46,596 bases of DNA, taken from IMG/VR virus record IMGVR_UViG_3300045993_000225, positions 1 to 46,596 of that record; one strand, given 5' to 3'. Under the pieces are notes generated by a model. That model saw only the letters and a list, made by a program, of their open reading frames with translations. It searched no databases and had not been told where the DNA came from. The DNA is from a virus. Shown here in pieces: positions 2,171 to 46,596 of the stretch. How positions within the stretch are numbered: position 1 is the stretch's first letter; each line of letters begins with the position of its first letter. A program made the position numbers and the translations under genes.

Positions 2171-2722
2171 TTACGCCATCGACCACAGATCGGCGGGGTT
2201 CTTGAAGCGATGCACGGGCGCCGGGCATTCTTCGATGGCGAGGTCGATTTGCTCTTGCGGCAAGCCGAATTCTTCATACCCTTCACGAAGGGTCCGTTCG
2301 TACCCGGAGTAGGGCGGCGACGCCGGGCCATCCTTCGCCATGACGTAGAACATCACGATTCGCTCAACGCCGTCCAGAACCACCTTGCCGTACTGCTTGG
2401 TGTAGAAGCTGGGGAAGCCTTCGAAGGCGTCCAGGCTGCGCTCGCACCGCGGGGTGATCCACCACAAGGCGCCGAACACGGTCCGGCCGGGAGCGCGGAC
2501 CACGTCAGCGACGCCGCGGAACTTGAGGCAGTGGTCTTCCAGCATCATCTTGCCGACCGGGTCAGCGTCGGGGCAGCGACTGTCCATCGACGCGAGGTTG
2601 GTGTTCGCCCCGTAGGCGAAGTAAAGGATTCGGTCGGCGCGGTTGGCGGGTTTGCGCTTGGGGACGGGCTTCGACAGGCCGGGAAGGGCGCGCTGGCGGG
2701 CTTTGGTGGTGGTCTTGGTCAT
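2171..2722 (-). CDS. Gamma-glutamylcyclotransferase-like (GGCT/AIG2) protein
   Basis: 183 residues. After a 30-residue basic N-terminus comes RILYFAYGANTN, the YGxN substrate-loop motif of the GGCT/AIG2 fold (residues 32-42). ERSLDAFEGFPSFY (about 94-107) contains the expected catalytic glutamate, E101. Family members cyclise gamma-glutamyl amides, releasing 5-oxoproline and an amine, or cleave gamma-glutamyl isopeptides. In this operon it follows an amidoligase gene, a pairing known for predicted peptide or metabolite tagging systems in which the cyclotransferase reverses or trims the ligase product. The start has the GGAGCAAC leader. The family is confident; the true substrate is unknown. 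Confidence 0.85.
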   Translation of the reverse strand: MTKTTTKARQRALPGLSKPVPKRKPANRADRILYFAYGANTNLASMDSRCPDADPVGKMMLEDHCLKFRGVADVVRAPGRTVFGALWWITPRCERSLDAFEGFPSFYTKQYGKVVLDGVERIVMFYVMAKDGPASPPYSGYERTLREGYEEFGLPQEQIDLAIEECPAPVHRFKNPADLWSMA

Positions 2723-3037: not shown

Positions 3038-3850
3038 TCAGGCGCGGGTCGCGGCCAGGGCGGCTTGACGAGCGCGGAAGAAAGCGCGGGCCTTGCGGTC
3101 CTTGGTGTTGGCGAGCAGGCGGTTCAGGTCACCGGCGCCGGCCGGGCTGATCCGGGTCGCGTTCGCCGCTTCGTCAGCGAAGTCGACAACCAGACGCACC
3201 CAGTTGATGATCTTTTCGGCTTCCGTCGTGCCGCCGTGCTGGCGGAATTCGACGGTGCCGTGGCGCAGCAGGGCGCAGAGGTTCAGCTTGTGATAACGGC
3301 CGTTGTCGTCGGCGGCGCGGTTCGTCACCATCAGGAGCGAGTGCAGCGTGGTCACGGCGCCGATGGCTTGAAAGGCGTCGGCCACCGAACCGTGGCGGCG
3401 CAGGTTGCTGTTGCAGTAATGGTTGTCGCGGCGCGACGCCGGAACCAGTTGGTCGAAGCAGGTTTCGTACTTCATCCACATGCGGGCAAGGTTCTTGATC
3501 TTGTTCAGGTTTTGGGAGAAGTCCCGACCGTCGACGTGGACGTGCAAGCCGCACGACGAATTCACCGTGCAACCCAGTTCGTTCAGCACACGGCAGACGG
3601 TGGCGATTTGTTCCAGGCCGGCGTCGCCGCGCAGGATCGGGGACACAAGCTCGAAAGGCAGCGAGCCGGCGACGGACACGTCGGAAACCACCTTCCAAGA
3701 TGCCACCGCCGTGTGGCTGTAGCCGGCGTCGTAGCAGTCGATGCCAGCGCGACGCAGCGCGGTTGCGACGGCGCCGCGGGTTGCGCCGACGGCTTCGATT
3801 TCGACGCCGAAGGTGCGGGTGGACATTGTGTTTTTTGCTGCGGTGGTCAT
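3038..3850 (-). CDS. Putative amidoligase (glutamine-synthetase-like fold)
   Basis: 270 residues with the landmarks of the putative amidoligase family (PF12224-type): FGVEIE (14-19), FELVSP (66-71), CGLHVHVD (100-107), RYHKLN (185-190) and EFRQHGGT (201-208). The acidic, histidine and arginine residues correspond to the metal- and ATP-binding positions of the glutamine-synthetase-like fold. Members are predicted to form amide or peptide bonds at a carboxylate using ATP. The start is set at 3850, preceded by GGAGCAAA; the frame stays open to 3925 but that extension would cover the promoter. It is first in a leftward operon with a small protein and a GGCT-like protein. Family confident, substrate unknown. 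Confidence 0.88.
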   Translation of the reverse strand: MTTAAKNTMSTRTFGVEIEAVGATRGAVATALRRAGIDCYDAGYSHTAVASWKVVSDVSVAGSLPFELVSPILRGDAGLEQIATVCRVLNELGCTVNSSCGLHVHVDGRDFSQNLNKIKNLARMWMKYETCFDQLVPASRRDNHYCNSNLRRHGSVADAFQAIGAVTTLHSLLMVTNRAADDNGRYHKLNLCALLRHGTVEFRQHGGTTEAEKIINWVRLVVDFADEAANATRISPAGAGDLNRLLANTKDRKARAFFRARQAALAATRA

Positions 3851-3918: not shown

Positions 3919-4020
3919 CGACCAAAACACGAAATCGTGTTGGGACAAACCCTAATAAGTTGACCAGCCGTCTTTAGAGCCTCCCCGTCGCCGTGTTCTT
4001 TCGGCTACCATGCCGGTCGC

Positions 4021-4299
4021 ATGAGCAATCCAATGACCGAAAACCAGTTCAGCGACTTCGTCGGCGCGCACCGATGGACGTTCGCCAAGACCATGCCGCA
4101 GAACCCTCACGAATGGCTGGCCCGCAAAGCTGTGCCGGACGCTGACTTCGTCGCTGCGGTGCTGTTCATCCGAGCCAACGGCTACACCAAGATGTTCGGC
4201 CGCAAGGGCTACGTCTGCTTCAACTTGGGGCCGCATCGCTACTGGACGATGGGCAACCCGATGAGTGACACGACCATCATCAACAGGGCGGTGAACTGA
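4021..4299 (+). CDS. Small conserved-type protein heading the modification-like cassette
   Basis: 92 residues, soluble, aromatic-rich, with WTFAKTMPQNPHEWLARK (about 19-36), a central FGRKGYVCFN and C-terminal HRYWTMGNP. I recall proteins of this appearance in phages and mobile elements near methyltransferase or PAPS-reductase-like genes, but cannot name a family. The ATG has no visible ribosome site and lies only nine bases after a -10-like TACCAT (4006-4011), so the message may be leaderless. Its stop overlaps the next start by one base, placing it first in an operon with the glycosyltransferase-like, methyltransferase and IbrA/IbrB genes. Function unknown. Confidence 0.65.
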   Translation: MSNPMTENQFSDFVGAHRWTFAKTMPQNPHEWLARKAVPDADFVAAVLFIRANGYTKMFGRKGYVCFNLGPHRYWTMGNPMSDTTIINRAVN

Positions 4300-4952
4300 T
4301 GCAGGTGTTCGTCCAGGCGGTGCGGGAGCGCTTGCCCTACATCCAGGCCAGCATGGCGCCAGCAATCGCCGCCGCGGGGTGGGAGTCGCCCCGACTGTCG
4401 GTCGACCATGACCGCCGCGGTCCGCTATGGAACGCGCGGCGGATCTGGCAAGGCATCGCGGAAAGCGGCCGCCCGGCCGTCGTCCTGCAAGACGACGTGG
4501 TTCTGCGCAAGGGCATCGGCGCCAGCGTCGCGGAGGTCATGTTGCACATCGACTCCGGCCGGATGCAGGCGGTGTCGTTGTTCGCCCCGCCGCGAGCGGT
4601 CATGCGGCGAGCCTACGACGAGGGTCACAACTTCGTGGAAACCTTCGATTTCTTGTGGGCGCAAGGTCTGCTGCTGACGCCGGCTTTCTGCGCCGGGTTG
4701 GTGGAGTTCTCCGCCGGGATGACCACCAAGCATGACGACTCTGTGATGCGCGACTACTCCGTCGCGAAGGGTGTCCCGGTGTTCAACTGCCTGCCGTCGC
4801 TGGTGCAGCATGACCTCAACCTGAAGTCCACGCTGGGCACGCCGAAGTCGCTGCTGGGAAAGATGCGCCGCTCCGACGTGTGGGAGTGTGCGCCGGTGCC
4901 GGCCGGGCATTTCGCGCAAGTCCGCGCAATCCGCCAGGGGCGCCGCGGATGA
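4299..4952 (+). CDS. Glycosyltransferase-like protein
   Basis: 217 residues. The pattern resembles small GT-A glycosyltransferases: VVLQDDVVL (about 63-71) looks like the DxD-type nucleotide-sugar and metal site after a hydrophobic strand, KHDDSVMRDYSVAKG holds a second acidic pair, and PSLVQHD resembles the C-terminal histidine region of such enzymes. No signal peptide or membrane segment, so cytoplasmic action is expected. It is sandwiched by one- and four-base overlaps between a small unknown protein and a DNA methyltransferase-like protein, so a role in glycosylating a phage product, possibly modified DNA, is conceivable. The family call is moderate and the substrate is unknown. Confidence 0.6.
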   Translation: MQVFVQAVRERLPYIQASMAPAIAAAGWESPRLSVDHDRRGPLWNARRIWQGIAESGRPAVVLQDDVVLRKGIGASVAEVMLHIDSGRMQAVSLFAPPRAVMRRAYDEGHNFVETFDFLWAQGLLLTPAFCAGLVEFSAGMTTKHDDSVMRDYSVAKGVPVFNCLPSLVQHDLNLKSTLGTPKSLLGKMRRSDVWECAPVPAGHFAQVRAIRQGRRG

Positions 4953-5557
4953 AAGCCGTCGACAAGCAACGAATCCTGCCGCACCGCGTCAGCCTGGGGT
5001 CGCTGATGGGGCCGCAGTTGGACAACATCATCCAGGGCGAGTCGATCCACGTCCTGTATTCAGATCCACCGTGGGGCGACGGCTATCTCAAGATGTTCGC
5101 CACCTACACCGAGAAGGTGACCGGCAAGCGCCCTGTTCAGCCGACACATGCGCAGATGTGCGCCCGGTACGCCCAACTGGTGCAGCGGCACGTCACCGGC
5201 TACGTCTTCATCGAAACGTCGCTGGCCTGCTCCGGTGAGTTCATCGCCGCACTGCGCCCGGTGGTCGGCACGATCCGCCACCAGCAGATCACCTATGCCA
5301 ACGAGTTGAAGGCGATCCTGATCATGGCGGCGATGCCGGGGAAGAGCCTGCCGGCGATCCGCACCGACGGGCTCAAGGGGATTGCGTTCGTCACCGCCGT
5401 GCTGCGCACCGTCGAAAAGCGTGGCGCATTCGTCCTCGACCCGTGCTGCGGCGCCGGCTACACCGCCCGGGCGGCGAAGTCTCTCGGAATGATCTTCCGC
5501 GGGAACGAACTGAACCCGGCGCGCCTGGAAAAGACCATCGCCCACCTGTCCGCATGA
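4949..5557 (+). CDS. DPPW-type SAM-dependent nucleic-acid methyltransferase
   Basis: 202 residues. LYSDPPWGDG holds the amino-methyltransferase catalytic motif IV DPPW (39-42), and LDPCCGAGYTARAA holds the SAM-binding motif I (164-170). The motif order, catalytic before SAM-binding, fits a beta-class or MT-A70-like N6-adenine or N4-cytosine enzyme. It is short, with little room for a target-recognition domain between the motifs. The start at 4949 shares ATGA with the previous stop; the frame is open upstream but would overlap the glycosyltransferase. It lies between glycosyltransferase-like and IbrA-like genes, which suggests a DNA modification or anti-restriction cassette. Family confident; target and specificity unknown. 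Confidence 0.82.
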   Translation: MKAVDKQRILPHRVSLGSLMGPQLDNIIQGESIHVLYSDPPWGDGYLKMFATYTEKVTGKRPVQPTHAQMCARYAQLVQRHVTGYVFIETSLACSGEFIAALRPVVGTIRHQQITYANELKAILIMAAMPGKSLPAIRTDGLKGIAFVTAVLRTVEKRGAFVLDPCCGAGYTARAAKSLGMIFRGNELNPARLEKTIAHLSA

Positions 5558-6669
5558 GAATCTATCGCAACCAGACGGTGTTCGACGCCGCCCTTGAGCG
5601 CATCCGGTGGCTATTCAGCGAGTTCGATCACATCGTCGTCGCCTTCAGCGGCGGCAAGGACTCGACCGTCGTCTTCAACCTGACGTTGCAGGTGGCGCGC
5701 GAACTGGGCCGCCTGCCGCTGACGGTTATGTGGATCGACCAAGAGGCGGAATGGCAGGCCACGCACGATCAAGCCTGCATCGTCATGCGCCACCCGGACG
5801 TCCGCCCGCGTTGGTACCAGATGCCGATGCGCCTGTTCAACGCGACCAGCAAGGATGAACACTGGCTGATGTGCTGGGATGCCGCGGCCGAAGACCGCTG
5901 GATGCGCCCGCGGGAGCCTGACAGCGTCCACGTCAACGACTACGGCACCGACCGATTCGGCGCCCTGTTTGACGCCATCATCGCCAAGGAGTACGCCGGG
6001 CAATCGGCCTGCATCATCGGCGGCGTGCGCTGCGAGGAAAGCCCCGCGCGCACCGTCGGGCTCACCCACATGCCGACGCACAAGTGGGCAACCTGGGGTA
6101 AGCGACTGACCAAGGGCGAGAACCACGTCGCCATGTACCCGATCTATGACTGGTCATACACCGATGTGTGGGTGGCGATCCACAAGAACGGGTGGCCCTA
6201 CAACGCGATATACGACACGCAATACGCCTACGGCGTGGGGCTGCGCGACATGCGGGTGTCCAACGTCCACCATGAGACAGCGGTCGGGCACCTGTTCTAC
6301 ATGCAGGAGGCGGAGCCGGCGACCTACGTCAAGCTGACCCGCCGCATCCAGGGCATCGACATGGCCGGGAAAATGGCCGACGACTACTTCCCGACCGAGC
6401 TTCCGTTCATGTTCAAGGACTGGCGCGAGTACCGCGACTACCTGCTGGACAAGCTGATCGACAAGCCGGAATGGCGCTCCGGCATGGCCGCCGCCTTCAA
6501 GCGCCAGGACGACATCTACGGCGCGACGTTCGGTTTCGACCGCATCGCCCGCTATCACATCACGTCCATCCTCACGAACGACTGGGAACTGATCAAGACC
6601 CGGGCGATGGAAACAACCGGGTGGGCAATCGCTCACCGACGCAAGCTGGCCGGGAAGGCGACATGGTGA
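5554..6669 (+). CDS. ibrA: IbrA-like PAPS-reductase-family PP-loop protein
   Basis: 371 residues. VVAFSGGKDSTVV carries the PP-loop SGGKDS (32-37) that binds ATP pyrophosphate in adenylating or thiolating enzymes. Downstream blocks IIGGVRCEES and YPIYDWSYTDVWVAIHKNGWPYN fit the phage PAPS-reductase-like group typified by E. coli IbrA. Family members are usually followed by a ParB-like IbrB, as here (seven-base overlap). IbrA/IbrB were described as activators of prophage eib gene expression; the chemistry is unknown, and related PP-loop enzymes (DndC) act in DNA sulphur modification. The start shares ATGA with the methyltransferase stop. PP-loop family is certain, IbrA orthology likely, function open. 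Confidence 0.85.
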   Translation: MRIYRNQTVFDAALERIRWLFSEFDHIVVAFSGGKDSTVVFNLTLQVARELGRLPLTVMWIDQEAEWQATHDQACIVMRHPDVRPRWYQMPMRLFNATSKDEHWLMCWDAAAEDRWMRPREPDSVHVNDYGTDRFGALFDAIIAKEYAGQSACIIGGVRCEESPARTVGLTHMPTHKWATWGKRLTKGENHVAMYPIYDWSYTDVWVAIHKNGWPYNAIYDTQYAYGVGLRDMRVSNVHHETAVGHLFYMQEAEPATYVKLTRRIQGIDMAGKMADDYFPTELPFMFKDWREYRDYLLDKLIDKPEWRSGMAAAFKRQDDIYGATFGFDRIARYHITSILTNDWELIKTRAMETTGWAIAHRRKLAGKATW

Positions 6670-7328
6670 CACTGGAAGACGCGAAAACGACCCTACGGCG
6701 CGCGGTGGAAGCATCGGGCGACCCAACGTCCACCATCGAAGCGCTGCGAGCCCTGATGCACGATCTGAGCCCGCAGCGGCATAACCCCGTCGACTGGGTG
6801 CGGTGGATTCCCATAGACCAGGTGGAGGCGAACGACTACAACCCGAACGCGGTGGCGATGAACGAAATGCGCCTGCTGCACGTCAGCATCACGCATGACG
6901 GGTACACGCAGCCGGTGGTAGTGGTTTTCGACCCGGAGCGCAGCAAGTTCGTCATCGTGGACGGGTTCCACCGTTACACCACGATGAGGCTGAACCCCGA
7001 ACTGCTCGCGCGCAACGGCGGCCTGTTGCCCTGCGTGGTGCTGAACAAGTCGATCAATGACCGCATGGCGTCCACCGTCCGCCACAACCGCGCGCGGGGG
7101 AAGCACTCCATCACCGGGATGGCAAGCATGGTCTTCACCATGCTGGAAAACGGCTGGACCGACGAAGCGATCTGCGCCGAGATTGGCGTGTCGGTCGATG
7201 AACTGGTCCGACTCAAGCACGTCACCGGGTTCAGCAAGCTATTCGAGAACGCCGACTACAAACGGGCGTGGGAAACCACGCGCCAGATCGAACTACGCCG
7301 CGACCACAAGAAGGCAAACCCTGCATGA
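6663..7328 (+). CDS. ibrB: IbrB-like ParB/Srx-fold protein
   Basis: 221 residues, with HNPVDWVRWIP (40-50), NDYNPN (57-62), HDGYTQPVVV (79-87), the ParB-type motif VDGFHRYTTM (99-108) and RHNRARGKHSI (140-150). These match the IbrB group of ParB N-terminal-domain proteins as I know them. An HTH-like segment DEAICAEIGVSVDELVRLKHVTG follows (about 165-187). ParB-fold proteins bind DNA and nucleotides and some are nucleases or CTPases. It overlaps the IbrA gene by seven bases and the next ParB gene by four. The paired order IbrA-IbrB supports joint function. GTG at 6666 is an alternative start. Confidence 0.85.
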   Translation: MVTLEDAKTTLRRAVEASGDPTSTIEALRALMHDLSPQRHNPVDWVRWIPIDQVEANDYNPNAVAMNEMRLLHVSITHDGYTQPVVVVFDPERSKFVIVDGFHRYTTMRLNPELLARNGGLLPCVVLNKSINDRMASTVRHNRARGKHSITGMASMVFTMLENGWTDEAICAEIGVSVDELVRLKHVTGFSKLFENADYKRAWETTRQIELRRDHKKANPA

Positions 7329-7900
7329 AGATCCAACAGATCCCGCTCACCCTGATCAAGCCATACTGGCGCAACCCGCGCGACAACGCCGGCGCAGTCG
7401 ACGCCGTCAAGACCTCCATCATGGAGTTCGGCGTCAATCAACCGCTGGTGCTGGACAAGGACAACGTCATCGTTGTCGGGCACACCCGCTACAAGGCGCT
7501 GATGGAGTTGGGCCACGAAAAAGCGCCCTGCGTGGTGCTGACCGGGCTGGACCCGGCGCGCGTCAAGGCGTACCGCATCGCGGACAACAAGACGAACGAA
7601 CTGGCCGAGTGGGACATCGCCAAACTGGTGCCGGAGCTTCGCGAAATCAGCGACGCCGTGGACATGGAGGCATTCTTCACCGACGGCGAGCTTGAAAAGC
7701 TGCTGGCGGACGCTGGCGGCCTGGATGTCGCCGGTGCGTCGCAGAGTGACATCGACGCGGCCAGCGAGCGCGCATCGACGCAATTCGACGGCATCGAAGG
7801 GGTAGCGTCCGAGAAGCAAGTCCCGATCATCTGCGTCCACTGCGGCGAAACCATCTTCGTCCAGGCTGAAGCGGTCGCACGCGAGGCAGCGCGCAAGTGA
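7325..7900 (+). CDS. ParB/Srx-domain protein next to terminase
   Basis: 191 residues. The N-terminal 100 residues are a ParB nuclease-like domain: IPLTLIKPYWRNPR, FGVNQPLVLDKDNVIVVGHTRY (GHTRY 52-56) and RIADNKTNELAEWD are the usual signatures of the type found before phage terminases or fused to DNA methylases. The C-terminus carries an ICVHC pair (C170, C173) that may be half of a zinc knuckle. The start shares ATGA with the IbrB-like stop and the stop shares GTGA with the small terminase gene, linking the modification cassette to packaging. A role in DNA binding or processing before packaging is inferred. Confidence 0.85.
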   Translation: MKIQQIPLTLIKPYWRNPRDNAGAVDAVKTSIMEFGVNQPLVLDKDNVIVVGHTRYKALMELGHEKAPCVVLTGLDPARVKAYRIADNKTNELAEWDIAKLVPELREISDAVDMEAFFTDGELEKLLADAGGLDVAGASQSDIDAASERASTQFDGIEGVASEKQVPIICVHCGETIFVQAEAVAREAARK

Positions 7901-8421
7901 AGAAGAAACCCGCACCCCGCGGCGCCACGCAGCGAGCCGACTGGCCGGCGATCAAGCTGGCCTTCATCAAGGGCACGATGTCAACGGCTGAACATGCCGC
8001 GACATTTGGGGTCACTTTGGACGCCATGAGGCAGCGTGTGGCGCGCGGAAAGTGGATGGCTGAGCGACACGCGATGTCGCAAGCGGTCACAGTTGTCGCA
8101 ACGGCGAAGGCGATCCGCTCGAAAGCCGAGCAACTGGCCGAGTTCGACGCGCAGGACGCCTCCATGAGTCGCGCGCTCCGCGGCGTGGCCGCCCGAATGC
8201 TGGCCGACGCGAACAAGCAGGACGGCCGCAAGCTGACGGCGAGCGAAGCCCGCACCATCGCCAGCCTTGCCGAAGCCGCGCAGAAGATCGGCCGCATCGC
8301 CCTTGGCGGCACCACCGAGAACCACGGCGTCGGCGGGCTGGCCGGCGCTCCGCCCATCGCCACGTCGAACATGACGCCCAAAGCGAAGAAGGCGATGGAT
8401 GATTACCTCCGCGACTACTGA
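7897..8421 (+). CDS. Putative terminase small subunit
   Basis: 174 residues from a GTG start sharing GTGA with the previous stop. The N-terminal region WPAIKLAFIKGTMSTAEHAATFG, then VTLDAMRQRVARGKWMAERH, reads as a helix-turn-helix of the kind seen in small terminases and phage MerR/HTH adaptors, followed by a long helical stretch (about 60-135) suited to oligomerisation. The call rests mainly on the HTH and on its position directly upstream of, and overlapping by 23 bases, the large terminase gene. Small terminases recognise the packaging site and stimulate the large subunit. Confidence 0.7.
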   Translation: MKKKPAPRGATQRADWPAIKLAFIKGTMSTAEHAATFGVTLDAMRQRVARGKWMAERHAMSQAVTVVATAKAIRSKAEQLAEFDAQDASMSRALRGVAARMLADANKQDGRKLTASEARTIASLAEAAQKIGRIALGGTTENHGVGGLAGAPPIATSNMTPKAKKAMDDYLRDY

Positions 8422-9916
8422 CGCCGAAGACGCGGCGAGCGTCCTGGCCGGGCAGCAAGAGGCGGCCCGCCGGTCGCTGCTGGCCTTCACGCGCTTCATG
8501 TTCCGGTCGCGCAAGGGTTATGACTTCGTCGTCAACTGGCACCACATCGAAATCTGCCGCGCGCTGATGCGGGTGTTCCGGGGTGAATGCACGCGCCTGA
8601 TCATCAACATCCCGCCGCGCTACAGCAAGACCGAGATAGCGGTGGTCAACTTCATCGCGTGGGCGCTGGGCCACGTCCCCGATGCGGAGTTCATCCACAC
8701 GTCCTACTCAGGTGGGCTGGCCGCCAACAATGCCTTCATGGCGCGCAATCTGGTCGAGACAGACGCCTACGCCGGCATTTTCCCGGGCGTCCGGCTGCGC
8801 ACCGACTCGAAAGCGCGCAACGACTGGCGCACTGTGGACGGCGGCGTGGTCTACGCGCAAGGCTCCGGCGGCACCATCACCGGCTACGGCGCCGGCAAGC
8901 TGCGCCAAGGGTTCGGCGGCGCCATCATCATCGACGACCCCCACAAGGCGGACGAGGCGCGGTCGGACACGATGCGCAAGAACGTCATCGACTGGTTCGG
9001 GAACACGCTTGAGAGCCGCGGCAACGGCGAGAACCGCTCCACGCCGATCATCGTCATCATGCAGCGCTTGCATGAGTCGGACCTGTCCGGCTTCCTGCTG
9101 GCCGGCGGCAACGGCGAGAAGTGGGACCACGTCGCCTTTCCGGCGCTGAGTGATGACGGCGCCACCGCGTTGTGGCCGGCGAAGCACACCGTCCAGGCGC
9201 TGCAAGCGATGCAGCGCGCGAACCCCTACGTCTTCGCTGGGCAGTACCAGCAACGCCCGGCACCGCTGGCCGGCGGCGAGTTCAAGCCCGACGCCATCGG
9301 CTACGTCGACGCCATCCCGGTGGGCACACGCATGGTGCGCGCGTGGGACTTCGCCGGGACGGAAGCCGATGGCGACTTCACCGCGGGCGCCGCGCTGGGC
9401 CAGATCCCCGACGGCCGCTACATCATCGCGGACATGGTCCACATGCAGGAAGCCTCCGAAAAGGTCGATGAGGCGCTGGTGAACACGGCCGGGCGCGACG
9501 GGGTGGGGGTGTCCATCGCCATCCCGCAAGACCCGGGCTCCGCCGGCAAAGGCGTCGCGCGCGCCATGACGAAACTGCTGGCGGGCTACAGCGTGTCATC
9601 GAAGCCGGTCAGTGGCGACAAGGTGCTGCGCGCGCGCCCGCTCGCGTCCCAGGTCAACGTCGGCAACGTCGTCATGCTCCGCGCGCCTTGGAATCTGGCG
9701 CTGGTGAACGAAATGCGCAACTTCCCCAACGGGAAGAACGACGACCAGATTGACGCGCTGTCGCTGGGCTTCGATTCGCTCACCGACAACACGCTGGGCC
9801 TGTTGGAGTATTACAAGCAAGAGGCGGCGGAAGCCGCGCAGCTACGCACCGCAGCGAAGGCCCAACCCGGGCCGCCGGCCGCCTTCGACGGGTTCAAGGG
9901 GTTCATCGGCAGGTGA
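8399..9916 (+). CDS. terL: Terminase large subunit
   Basis: 505 residues. The ATPase half has a deviant Walker A, IINIPPRYSKTE (about 68-79), and Walker B IIIDDP (176-181) followed by HKADEA. Next come IVIMQRLHESDLSG and FAGQYQQRP, typical of the phage uncharacterised C-terminal-domain terminase group (TIGR01630-like). The nuclease half begins at MVRAWDFAGTEADGDFTAG (acidic residues for metal binding) and closes with KNDDQIDALSLG, the last catalytic aspartate. It powers DNA translocation into the prohead and cuts the concatemer. The near-identical ends of the contig fit circular permutation by headful packaging, though cos packaging is not excluded. Confidence 0.95.
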   Translation: MITSATTDAEDAASVLAGQQEAARRSLLAFTRFMFRSRKGYDFVVNWHHIEICRALMRVFRGECTRLIINIPPRYSKTEIAVVNFIAWALGHVPDAEFIHTSYSGGLAANNAFMARNLVETDAYAGIFPGVRLRTDSKARNDWRTVDGGVVYAQGSGGTITGYGAGKLRQGFGGAIIIDDPHKADEARSDTMRKNVIDWFGNTLESRGNGENRSTPIIVIMQRLHESDLSGFLLAGGNGEKWDHVAFPALSDDGATALWPAKHTVQALQAMQRANPYVFAGQYQQRPAPLAGGEFKPDAIGYVDAIPVGTRMVRAWDFAGTEADGDFTAGAALGQIPDGRYIIADMVHMQEASEKVDEALVNTAGRDGVGVSIAIPQDPGSAGKGVARAMTKLLAGYSVSSKPVSGDKVLRARPLASQVNVGNVVMLRAPWNLALVNEMRNFPNGKNDDQIDALSLGFDSLTDNTLGLLEYYKQEAAEAAQLRTAAKAQPGPPAAFDGFKGFIGR

Positions 9917-46177: not shown

Positions 46178-46464
46178 GCTGGCGCCCCTTGCTCCGCGGT
46201 GGCGGAGCGGCGGGCCGGCGGCGTCGCCTTGCGCAGCGCGGACAGCAAGCCGACCGACCCGGGGCGCAGCGATTCCAGGCTCAGTTCACCGCCCGACGCC
46301 TCGACCAGCGCCAGCGCCAGCGCCAGCGACGGCTTGCGCCCGTAGCACAACTGCTTGAAGTTGTTGAAGGTGCATCCGGCCTTAGCACAGACCGTTTCGA
46401 TGAACGCCTTGCTGTACTTTTGTCGGTAATGTTGTGGAGACATTGGTTGTTGCTTGTGGTTCAT
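46174..46464 (-). CDS. Cro/YdaS-like HTH regulator
   Basis: 96 residues from ATG 46464; in-frame alternatives are 46503 and 46443. FIETVCAKAGCTFNNFKQLC, then YGRKPSLALALALVEASGGE and LSLESLRPGS match the YdaS/Cro-type helix-turn-helix group. It heads the long leftward early operon and is divergent to the CI-like gene across the circular junction, the place of a Cro repressor. The polymorphic base 46470/20 lies just before its start. A weak GAAAG is the only ribosome-site candidate. Confidence 0.75.
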   Translation of the reverse strand: MNHKQQPMSPQHYRQKYSKAFIETVCAKAGCTFNNFKQLCYGRKPSLALALALVEASGGELSLESLRPGSVGLLSALRKATPPARRSATAEQGAPA

Positions 46465-46596
46465 TGGTGGAGCTTTCAATGGTTGACGCGAAAATGCTAC
46501 CATAAAGGGCGCATTCAGGAAGCCTTAAATGATGGTGAAATACACCACCAACGGGTCGACGGCGAACCCACACAACAAGGATGCGAATGGACAGCA
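46451..46596. repeat. Right copy of the terminal redundancy
   Basis: Repeats positions 1-146 with one difference (G at 46470 for T at 20). It contains the intergenic switch region and the first bases of the CI-like gene (from 46581 or 46587), which is therefore present as a second, truncated copy at the contig end rather than as another gene. Confidence 0.9.

Follow-up and report, generated by a model that had tools for sequence, protein, structure and literature searches.

IbrA-like and IbrB-like proteins occur in hundreds of phage records with no known chemistry, and a connection of theirs with immunoglobulin-binding genes is cited in PMC4541368. In the 46,596-nucleotide IMG/VR virus record IMGVR_UViG_3300045993_000225, taken whole as the window of this analysis, such a pair belongs to a six-gene cassette (positions 4021-7900) encoding, in order, a conserved 92-amino-acid domain protein (here called A92), a glycosyltransferase, a methyltransferase, IbrA, IbrB, and a second ParB-like protein. 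The described IbrA/IbrB pair (phrog_2302 plus phrog_2159) has the same PP-loop protein and the same adjoining ParB-like protein; the window differs from it by A92, the second ParB-like gene, the decoration enzymes, and the adjacency of the terminase. The gene set is a real, recurrent, modular, modification-like cassette and not a chance collection.

Other described systems share single features with the cassette. In phage Mu, mom is expressed late and Mom is a single GNAT-like enzyme; Mu resembles the window in strong palindrome avoidance despite DNA modification, but the window cassette has a multi-protein core and no GNAT. Thymidine hypermodification in SP10, phiW-14, ViI, and M6 begins with hydroxymethyl-deoxyuridine from a thymidylate-synthase homologue. 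The likeness to these pathways is that an amino compound or sugar is added and then tailored, for example by acetylation or decarboxylation; the difference is the thymidylate-synthase homologue, as thymidylate synthase (PF00303) has no match in the whole record. The DpdA/TGT transglycosylase (PF01702) also has no match in the record, although distant DpdA forms could be missed. The known hydroxymethyl-pyrimidine and 7-deazaguanine routes are therefore not seen. Dnd, Ssp, and type 4 BREX each include a PP-loop protein, and Dnd also includes the ParB-superfamily protein DndB (PMC10853773).

Among cultured phages, the Microbacterium phages Hendrix and Leaf (Rogerhendrixvirus) carry glycosyltransferase, GNAT, A92-methyltransferase fusion, IbrA, IbrB, ParB-like genes, and terminase in a single run that spans the genome ends. 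They differ from the window by the fusion of A92 with a class I methyltransferase, and by extra glycosyltransferases and the GNAT. A tblastn search of cultured phages with A92 returned nothing, while a profile search found A92 in both. Arthrobacter phage Wheelbite has the order ParB, IbrA-like, ParB, methyltransferase, terminase, and mycobacteriophage Athena has ParB, IbrA-like, ParB, terminase. The IbrA-IbrB pair is found with no A92 in E. coli PhiR5_2, Flavobacterium FCL-2, mycobacteriophage Nebkiss, and Streptococcus CHPC1230. The accessible part of the Hendrix and Leaf genome paper proposes no function for the run (PMC7302621). In the open-licence papers found on IbrA/IbrB, or on phosphoadenosine phosphosulphate (PAPS) reductase with ParB in DNA modification, the accessible text neither describes the cassette nor assigns it a function.

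Recurrence of the core

Relatives were collected with IbrA as bait in viral contigs and with A92 as bait in viral and bacterial contigs, and the loci (numbered with the prefix L) were searched with profiles in six frames. Scans of viral contigs with the single glycosyltransferase or methyltransferase sequence gave no relatives because these proteins are too diverged, so that profiles or the IbrA bait are needed. The IbrA-selected sample comprises 29 non-redundant viral loci with enough flank and with IbrA proteins less than 70% identical, and is skewed to relatives of the window IbrA. IbrB directly follows IbrA in 28 of these loci, a ParB gene lies near IbrA in 28, and A92 is present in 23, in 22 of them upstream on the same strand. 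Conversely, 40 of the 42 viral loci selected by A92 have IbrA, as do only 2 of the 55 bacterial A92 loci. The linkage is preserved at IbrA identities of roughly 45-60% and beside several unrelated large-terminase families; the large genes downstream, mostly terminases, fall into several families with no detectable mutual similarity, and the cassette therefore occurs in different phage types. The linkage of the cassette genes is far beyond chance.

An earlier interpretation made from the letters of this DNA (the sequence-only reading) had described six genes overlapping by one to seven bases and leading into the terminase. The open frames bear this out, with successive overlaps of 1, 4, 4, 7, 4, and 4 bases, including that of the second ParB-like gene with the small terminase gene (TerS); TerS and the large terminase gene (TerL) overlap by 23 bases. 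The expectation that the genes recur together in other phages also held. The suggestion that the exact combination may be undescribed fared less well: the full window order is also found in L145 and, as far as IbrB, in L077 and L119, and cultured phages have fuller versions, although no description of the cassette was met in the literature above. Overlooked at that stage were A92 as the key conserved partner and the exchangeability of the genes between A92 and IbrA.

Exchangeable slot genes

The genes between the core genes vary by phage and include glycosyltransferases, GNAT acetyltransferases, methyltransferases, a dioxygenase-like family, and decarboxylases. The slot methyltransferases are of two beta-class-like kinds and of class I kinds, the latter often fused to A92; the A92-linked class I enzymes have a weak best PHROG match to 'tRNA methyltransferase.' Three families of pyruvoyl-dependent decarboxylase occur once each, namely an AdoMetDC-A92 fusion (L014:6746-7387), PvlArgDC (L039:5925-6455), and phosphatidylserine (PS) decarboxylase (L071:7719-8516), which suggests a role for an amine or amino acid. 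Across 88 non-redundant slot genes, the Pfam families of any substance all belong to group-transfer enzymes or decarboxylases. As controls, 88 genes were taken from the same contigs; the 25 of 37 control families listed include none of the slot families and consist mostly of structural genes, recombination genes, and the like. The control genes are shorter (median 147 versus 206 amino acids), so their hit rate is somewhat lowered.

The dioxygenase-like gene is accompanied by a glycosyltransferase in 14 of 15 loci, compared with 32 of 78 loci lacking it (Fisher p 1.6e-4, for loci that are not fully independent). Such an association would be required by a route in which hydroxylation precedes glycosylation. 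For the dioxygenase-like family, Pfam, PHROG, and PDB gave no convincing match, and its label is taken solely from an invariant HxD...H pattern.

The two slot genes of the window are a glycosyltransferase and an amino-methyltransferase. The 217-amino-acid protein matches phrog_854 'glucosyltransferase' (6.7e-9), and its model has a predicted local distance difference test score (pLDDT) of 93, with best Foldseek matches to mimivirus R655 (3e-9) and the collagen galactosyltransferase GLT25D1 (1e-7). D66, H171, and S177 are invariant in a 36-row alignment, and position 65 is D or E. With a GT-A fold and an acidic metal motif, the modelled protein is a GT-A-fold glycosyltransferase, and the putative glycosyltransferase of the sequence-only reading is thereby upheld by structure prediction. 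The 202-amino-acid protein as a single sequence matches N6_N4_Mtase at 1.2e-4, below the Pfam cut-off, while its family profile matches PDB entries at 1e-9 to 3e-8, with DpnA at 9e-10 and CcrM at 3e-8. D39, P40, P41, and E89 are invariant and W42 and D164 nearly so (27-row alignment). The DPPW motif precedes the S-adenosylmethionine-binding motif, as in beta-class N6/N4 amino-methyltransferases.

Core proteins

IbrA matches PAPS_reduct (6.6e-15) and phrog_2302 (3.6e-77), and the PP-loop SGGKDS is invariant across 59 sequences. Its profile has as closest solved relatives CysD and FAD synthase, both adenylyltransferases. Against the NCBIfam CysD model IbrA scores 36.1 bits, below the cut-off of 396.6; there is also a weak match to TilS. 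No cysteine is invariant in the 59 sequences. The most conserved, C107, occurs in 49, with A, T, or I at that position in the other 10, and the IbrA of L159, an intact member, has no cysteines at all, yet retains SGGKDS and its slot and core neighbours. Activation by IbrA through ATP with no sulphur chemistry is inferred from the absence of a conserved cysteine. As a single case, an APS-kinase-like gene (L059:4233-4835) lies a few kilobases upstream of one cassette.

IbrB and the protein that follows it are two distinct ParB-like proteins. IbrB matches phrog_2159 (7e-68), has the invariant motifs DGFHR and RHNRARGxHS, and in the PDB weakly resembles ParB/Noc, SbnI, and the serine kinase SerK; adjoining a PP-loop protein of PAPS-reductase fold, it conforms to the IbrA/IbrB pair. 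The second ParB-like protein matches phrog_620 (9e-47) and ParB_N (2.5e-6).

A92 has the conserved motifs WxFAKTMPxxPHxY, YWTMGxP, and INRA, in that order, and belongs to no Pfam family among 101 members. The structure prediction proposed with the sequence-only reading gave a confident model (pLDDT 95.6) with no clear PDB relative. Foldseek found no PDB fold match at E<=0.001, and Foldseek with VIA-align found nothing in PDB above Z 3.6, a result that does not by itself establish a novel fold; the model matches well one unnamed 93-amino-acid viral protein, A0A516LRX9. Bacterial proteins join A92 to GmrSD_N (1.6e-29), NUDIX (5.5e-20), and endonuclease/exonuclease/phosphatase (8e-8) domains. From these fusions, it is a reasonable guess that A92 is a nucleic-acid or modified-nucleotide binding domain, and the bacterial fusion proteins are possibly host sensors of modified nucleic acid. 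Five bacterial genomes examined gave weak PP-loop matches only, with no real IbrA. Fusion loci on bacterial contigs are L187, L191, L212, L213, L233, L183, and L196.

Palindrome avoidance

Of 30 testable palindromic hexamers, 10 hardly occur in the window genome, compared with 3 of 1788 non-palindromes, which is a strong sign of restriction pressure; the depleted hexamers include AAGCTT, CCATGG, CTGCAG, ACCGGT, CAGCTG, and GCATGC. The ratio of observed to expected palindromes is 0.74 for the window, 0.67 as the median of 55 cassette loci, 0.92 for Hendrix, and 0.88 for Leaf, while the reference phages give 0.97 for T4 (48 kb), 0.66 for lambda, 0.63 for T7, and 0.62 for Mu. The window genome thus avoids palindromes like lambda, T7, and Mu, unlike T4, and the idea that the cassette gives strong general protection to phage DNA is weakened. 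Complete protection of the T4 kind is unlikely given this avoidance, which fits either a mark that is partial and Mom-like or the modification of something other than DNA.

Interpretation and alternatives

We assign a probability of roughly 0.55 to the explanation that the cassette performs late, terminase-linked, Mom-like partial decoration of nucleic acid, probably on phage DNA around packaging. This explanation draws on the core linkage beside unrelated terminases, the group-transfer content of the slot, the DNA-adenine-like methyltransferase, the GT-A fold, the pairing of dioxygenase-like and glycosyltransferase genes, the adjacency of ParB-like and terminase genes, the bacterial A92 fusions, the adenylyltransferase relatives of IbrA, and the full run in Hendrix and Leaf. 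Phage DNA is suggested as the substrate by the terminase linkage, the ParB-like genes, and the resemblance of the methyltransferase to DpnA and CcrM. In the proposed mechanism, IbrA would spend ATP, with no sulphur chemistry, on activating an oxygen of either a base carbonyl or a small-molecule carboxylate, IbrB and the second ParB-like protein would supply nucleotide binding or DNA targeting, A92 would bind the modified or to-be-modified substrate, and the slot enzymes, here a glycosyltransferase and an N-methyltransferase, would then build or decorate the added group. The modification would be partial as in Mu, not a whole-base replacement as in T4. Several points weigh against this explanation: PP-loop enzymes often modify tRNA, the palindrome avoidance is like that of phages lacking full protection, the role of A92 is a guess drawn from its fusions, and cultured phages hold IbrA-IbrB pairs without A92 or slot genes, so that the pair can act without decorators.

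A bolder and rather doubtful proposal is a new class of base hypermodification. Here IbrA, as a PP-loop enzyme doing no sulphur chemistry, would activate a base carbonyl or an amino-acid carboxylate so that the base becomes joined to an amine or amino acid, the slot enzymes would tailor the product in a combination particular to each phage (decarboxylation of the PvlArgDC, AdoMetDC, or PSD kind, acetylation, methylation, hydroxylation, or glycosylation), and A92 would be a new reader of the product, fused in bacteria to type IV-like restriction proteins. The IbrA route would be a DNA counterpart of the lysidine/agmatidine logic.

A substrate of RNA, either tRNA or mRNA, is unlikely but deserves consideration, with IbrA acting like TilS or TtcA and slot enzymes decorating an RNA base. 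PP-loop chemistry is common on tRNA, and the weak TilS match of IbrA, the weak 'tRNA methyltransferase' match of the A92-linked class I enzymes, and a palindrome avoidance suggestive of poorly protected DNA all point in this direction, but the window methyltransferase is closest to DNA adenine enzymes and the cassette adjoins ParB-like genes and a terminase. It is less probable again that IbrA and IbrB are gene activators, as in eib expression of E. coli, and that the remaining genes are passengers. Bare pairs in cultured phages, two of them annotated as co-activators of prophage gene expression, are in keeping with such a role; however, in most related loci the pair is regularly accompanied by A92 and slot enzymes, and activation is compatible with modification, as a local DNA modification could cause it.

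Two explanations based on sulphur have very little probability. The sequence-only reading had pointed out that PP-loop and ParB-like proteins occur in DNA sulphur modification, and IbrA does have distant similarity in PADLOC to DndC (1e-6) and BrxP (3e-7), as expected if it were a DndC-like sulphur transferase of a Dnd, Ssp, or BREX-4 type system. DndC-type and PAPS-reductase chemistry requires cysteine, and the sulphur-transferase cysteines of DndC, SspD, and BrxP are not conserved in IbrA. With no invariant cysteine, a cysteine-free member in L159, and CysD and FAD synthase as nearest solved relatives, DNA sulphur modification is rejected for the IbrA family. Cysteine desulphurase, DndD/E, and SspB/C are absent from the Pfam matches of the slot genes, the whole genome not having been searched for each partner. 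Equally remote is an auxiliary metabolic role in which IbrA is a CysH-type PAPS reductase that aids host sulphur assimilation beside unrelated neighbours. PAPS reductase is the routine annotation, and viral cysH has been interpreted as sulphur metabolism (e.g. PMC9301287), but the catalytic cysteine needed by the reductase is not conserved, given the replacement of C107, and sulphate reduction would have no use for the fixed IbrB, A92, and ParB partners or for enzymes of group transfer. For want of a conserved cysteine, PAPS reductase identity is rejected as well. What survives of the sequence-only reading, which suggested that the set could make a hypermodified base or act on another nucleic acid, is the recurrent modification-like cassette, with the sulphur route unsupported and strong protection less likely.

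If partial nucleic-acid decoration is the correct explanation, IbrA-like viral 'cysH' genes are part of nucleic-acid modification and not of sulphur metabolism, and the unnamed A92 domain is a marker for such cassettes. The exchangeable slot suggests quick diversification of the added group, as in an arms race with modification-sensing restriction. Hendrix and Leaf are cultured and have the full version, so the question is directly testable.

Genome record and neighbouring genes

The two ends of the record (1-147 and 46450-46596) coincide over about 146 bases except for one difference, and the record is therefore probably a complete genome, though stored as a linear contig. The genome also encodes an integrase, SSB, ERF, and NinB; together with the end overlap, these indicate that the source virus is probably a complete temperate phage. 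The cassette and its neighbours are given in Table 1; the open frame of A92 could alternatively start at an internal ATG at 4033.

Table 1. Coordinates of cassette genes and neighbouring features in the window
Feature	Position	Strand	Length (amino acids)	Assignment
A92	4021-4299	+	92	Conserved domain protein, core partner of IbrA; open frame
Glycosyltransferase	4299-4952	+	217	Predicted GT-A fold, GT25-like; slot gene
Methyltransferase	4949-5557	+	202	DPPW amino-methyltransferase of the DpnA/CcrM kind; slot gene
IbrA	5554-6669	+	371	N-type PP-loop ATP pyrophosphatase; core
IbrB	6663-7328	+	221	ParB/Srx superfamily; core
Second ParB-like protein	7325-7900	+	191	Core
TerS	7897-8421	+		Small terminase-like subunit, from position and overlaps; weakly similar to the gene that precedes TerL in L006 and L014
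TerL	8399-9916	+		Large terminase; open frame; TerL downstream in most loci
Amidoligase	3038-3850	-		Amidoligase_2 (9.2e-43); divergent from cassette
Gamma-glutamyl(amine) cyclotransferase-like protein	2171-2722	-		GGACT (1.3e-7); amidoligase partner

Of 50 non-redundant viral cassettes, 5 have the amidoligase and cyclotransferase pair alongside, several of L005-L014 among them, and the pair is a possible but unproven associate of the cassette. It could protect and release an amine via gamma-glutamylation, or could be independent of the cassette. A DUF932 protein (5e-53) is encoded on the minus strand at 849-1829, and an apparently similar DUF932-like gene, compared by eye only, lies a few kilobases before the cassette of Hendrix (L253:504-1505).

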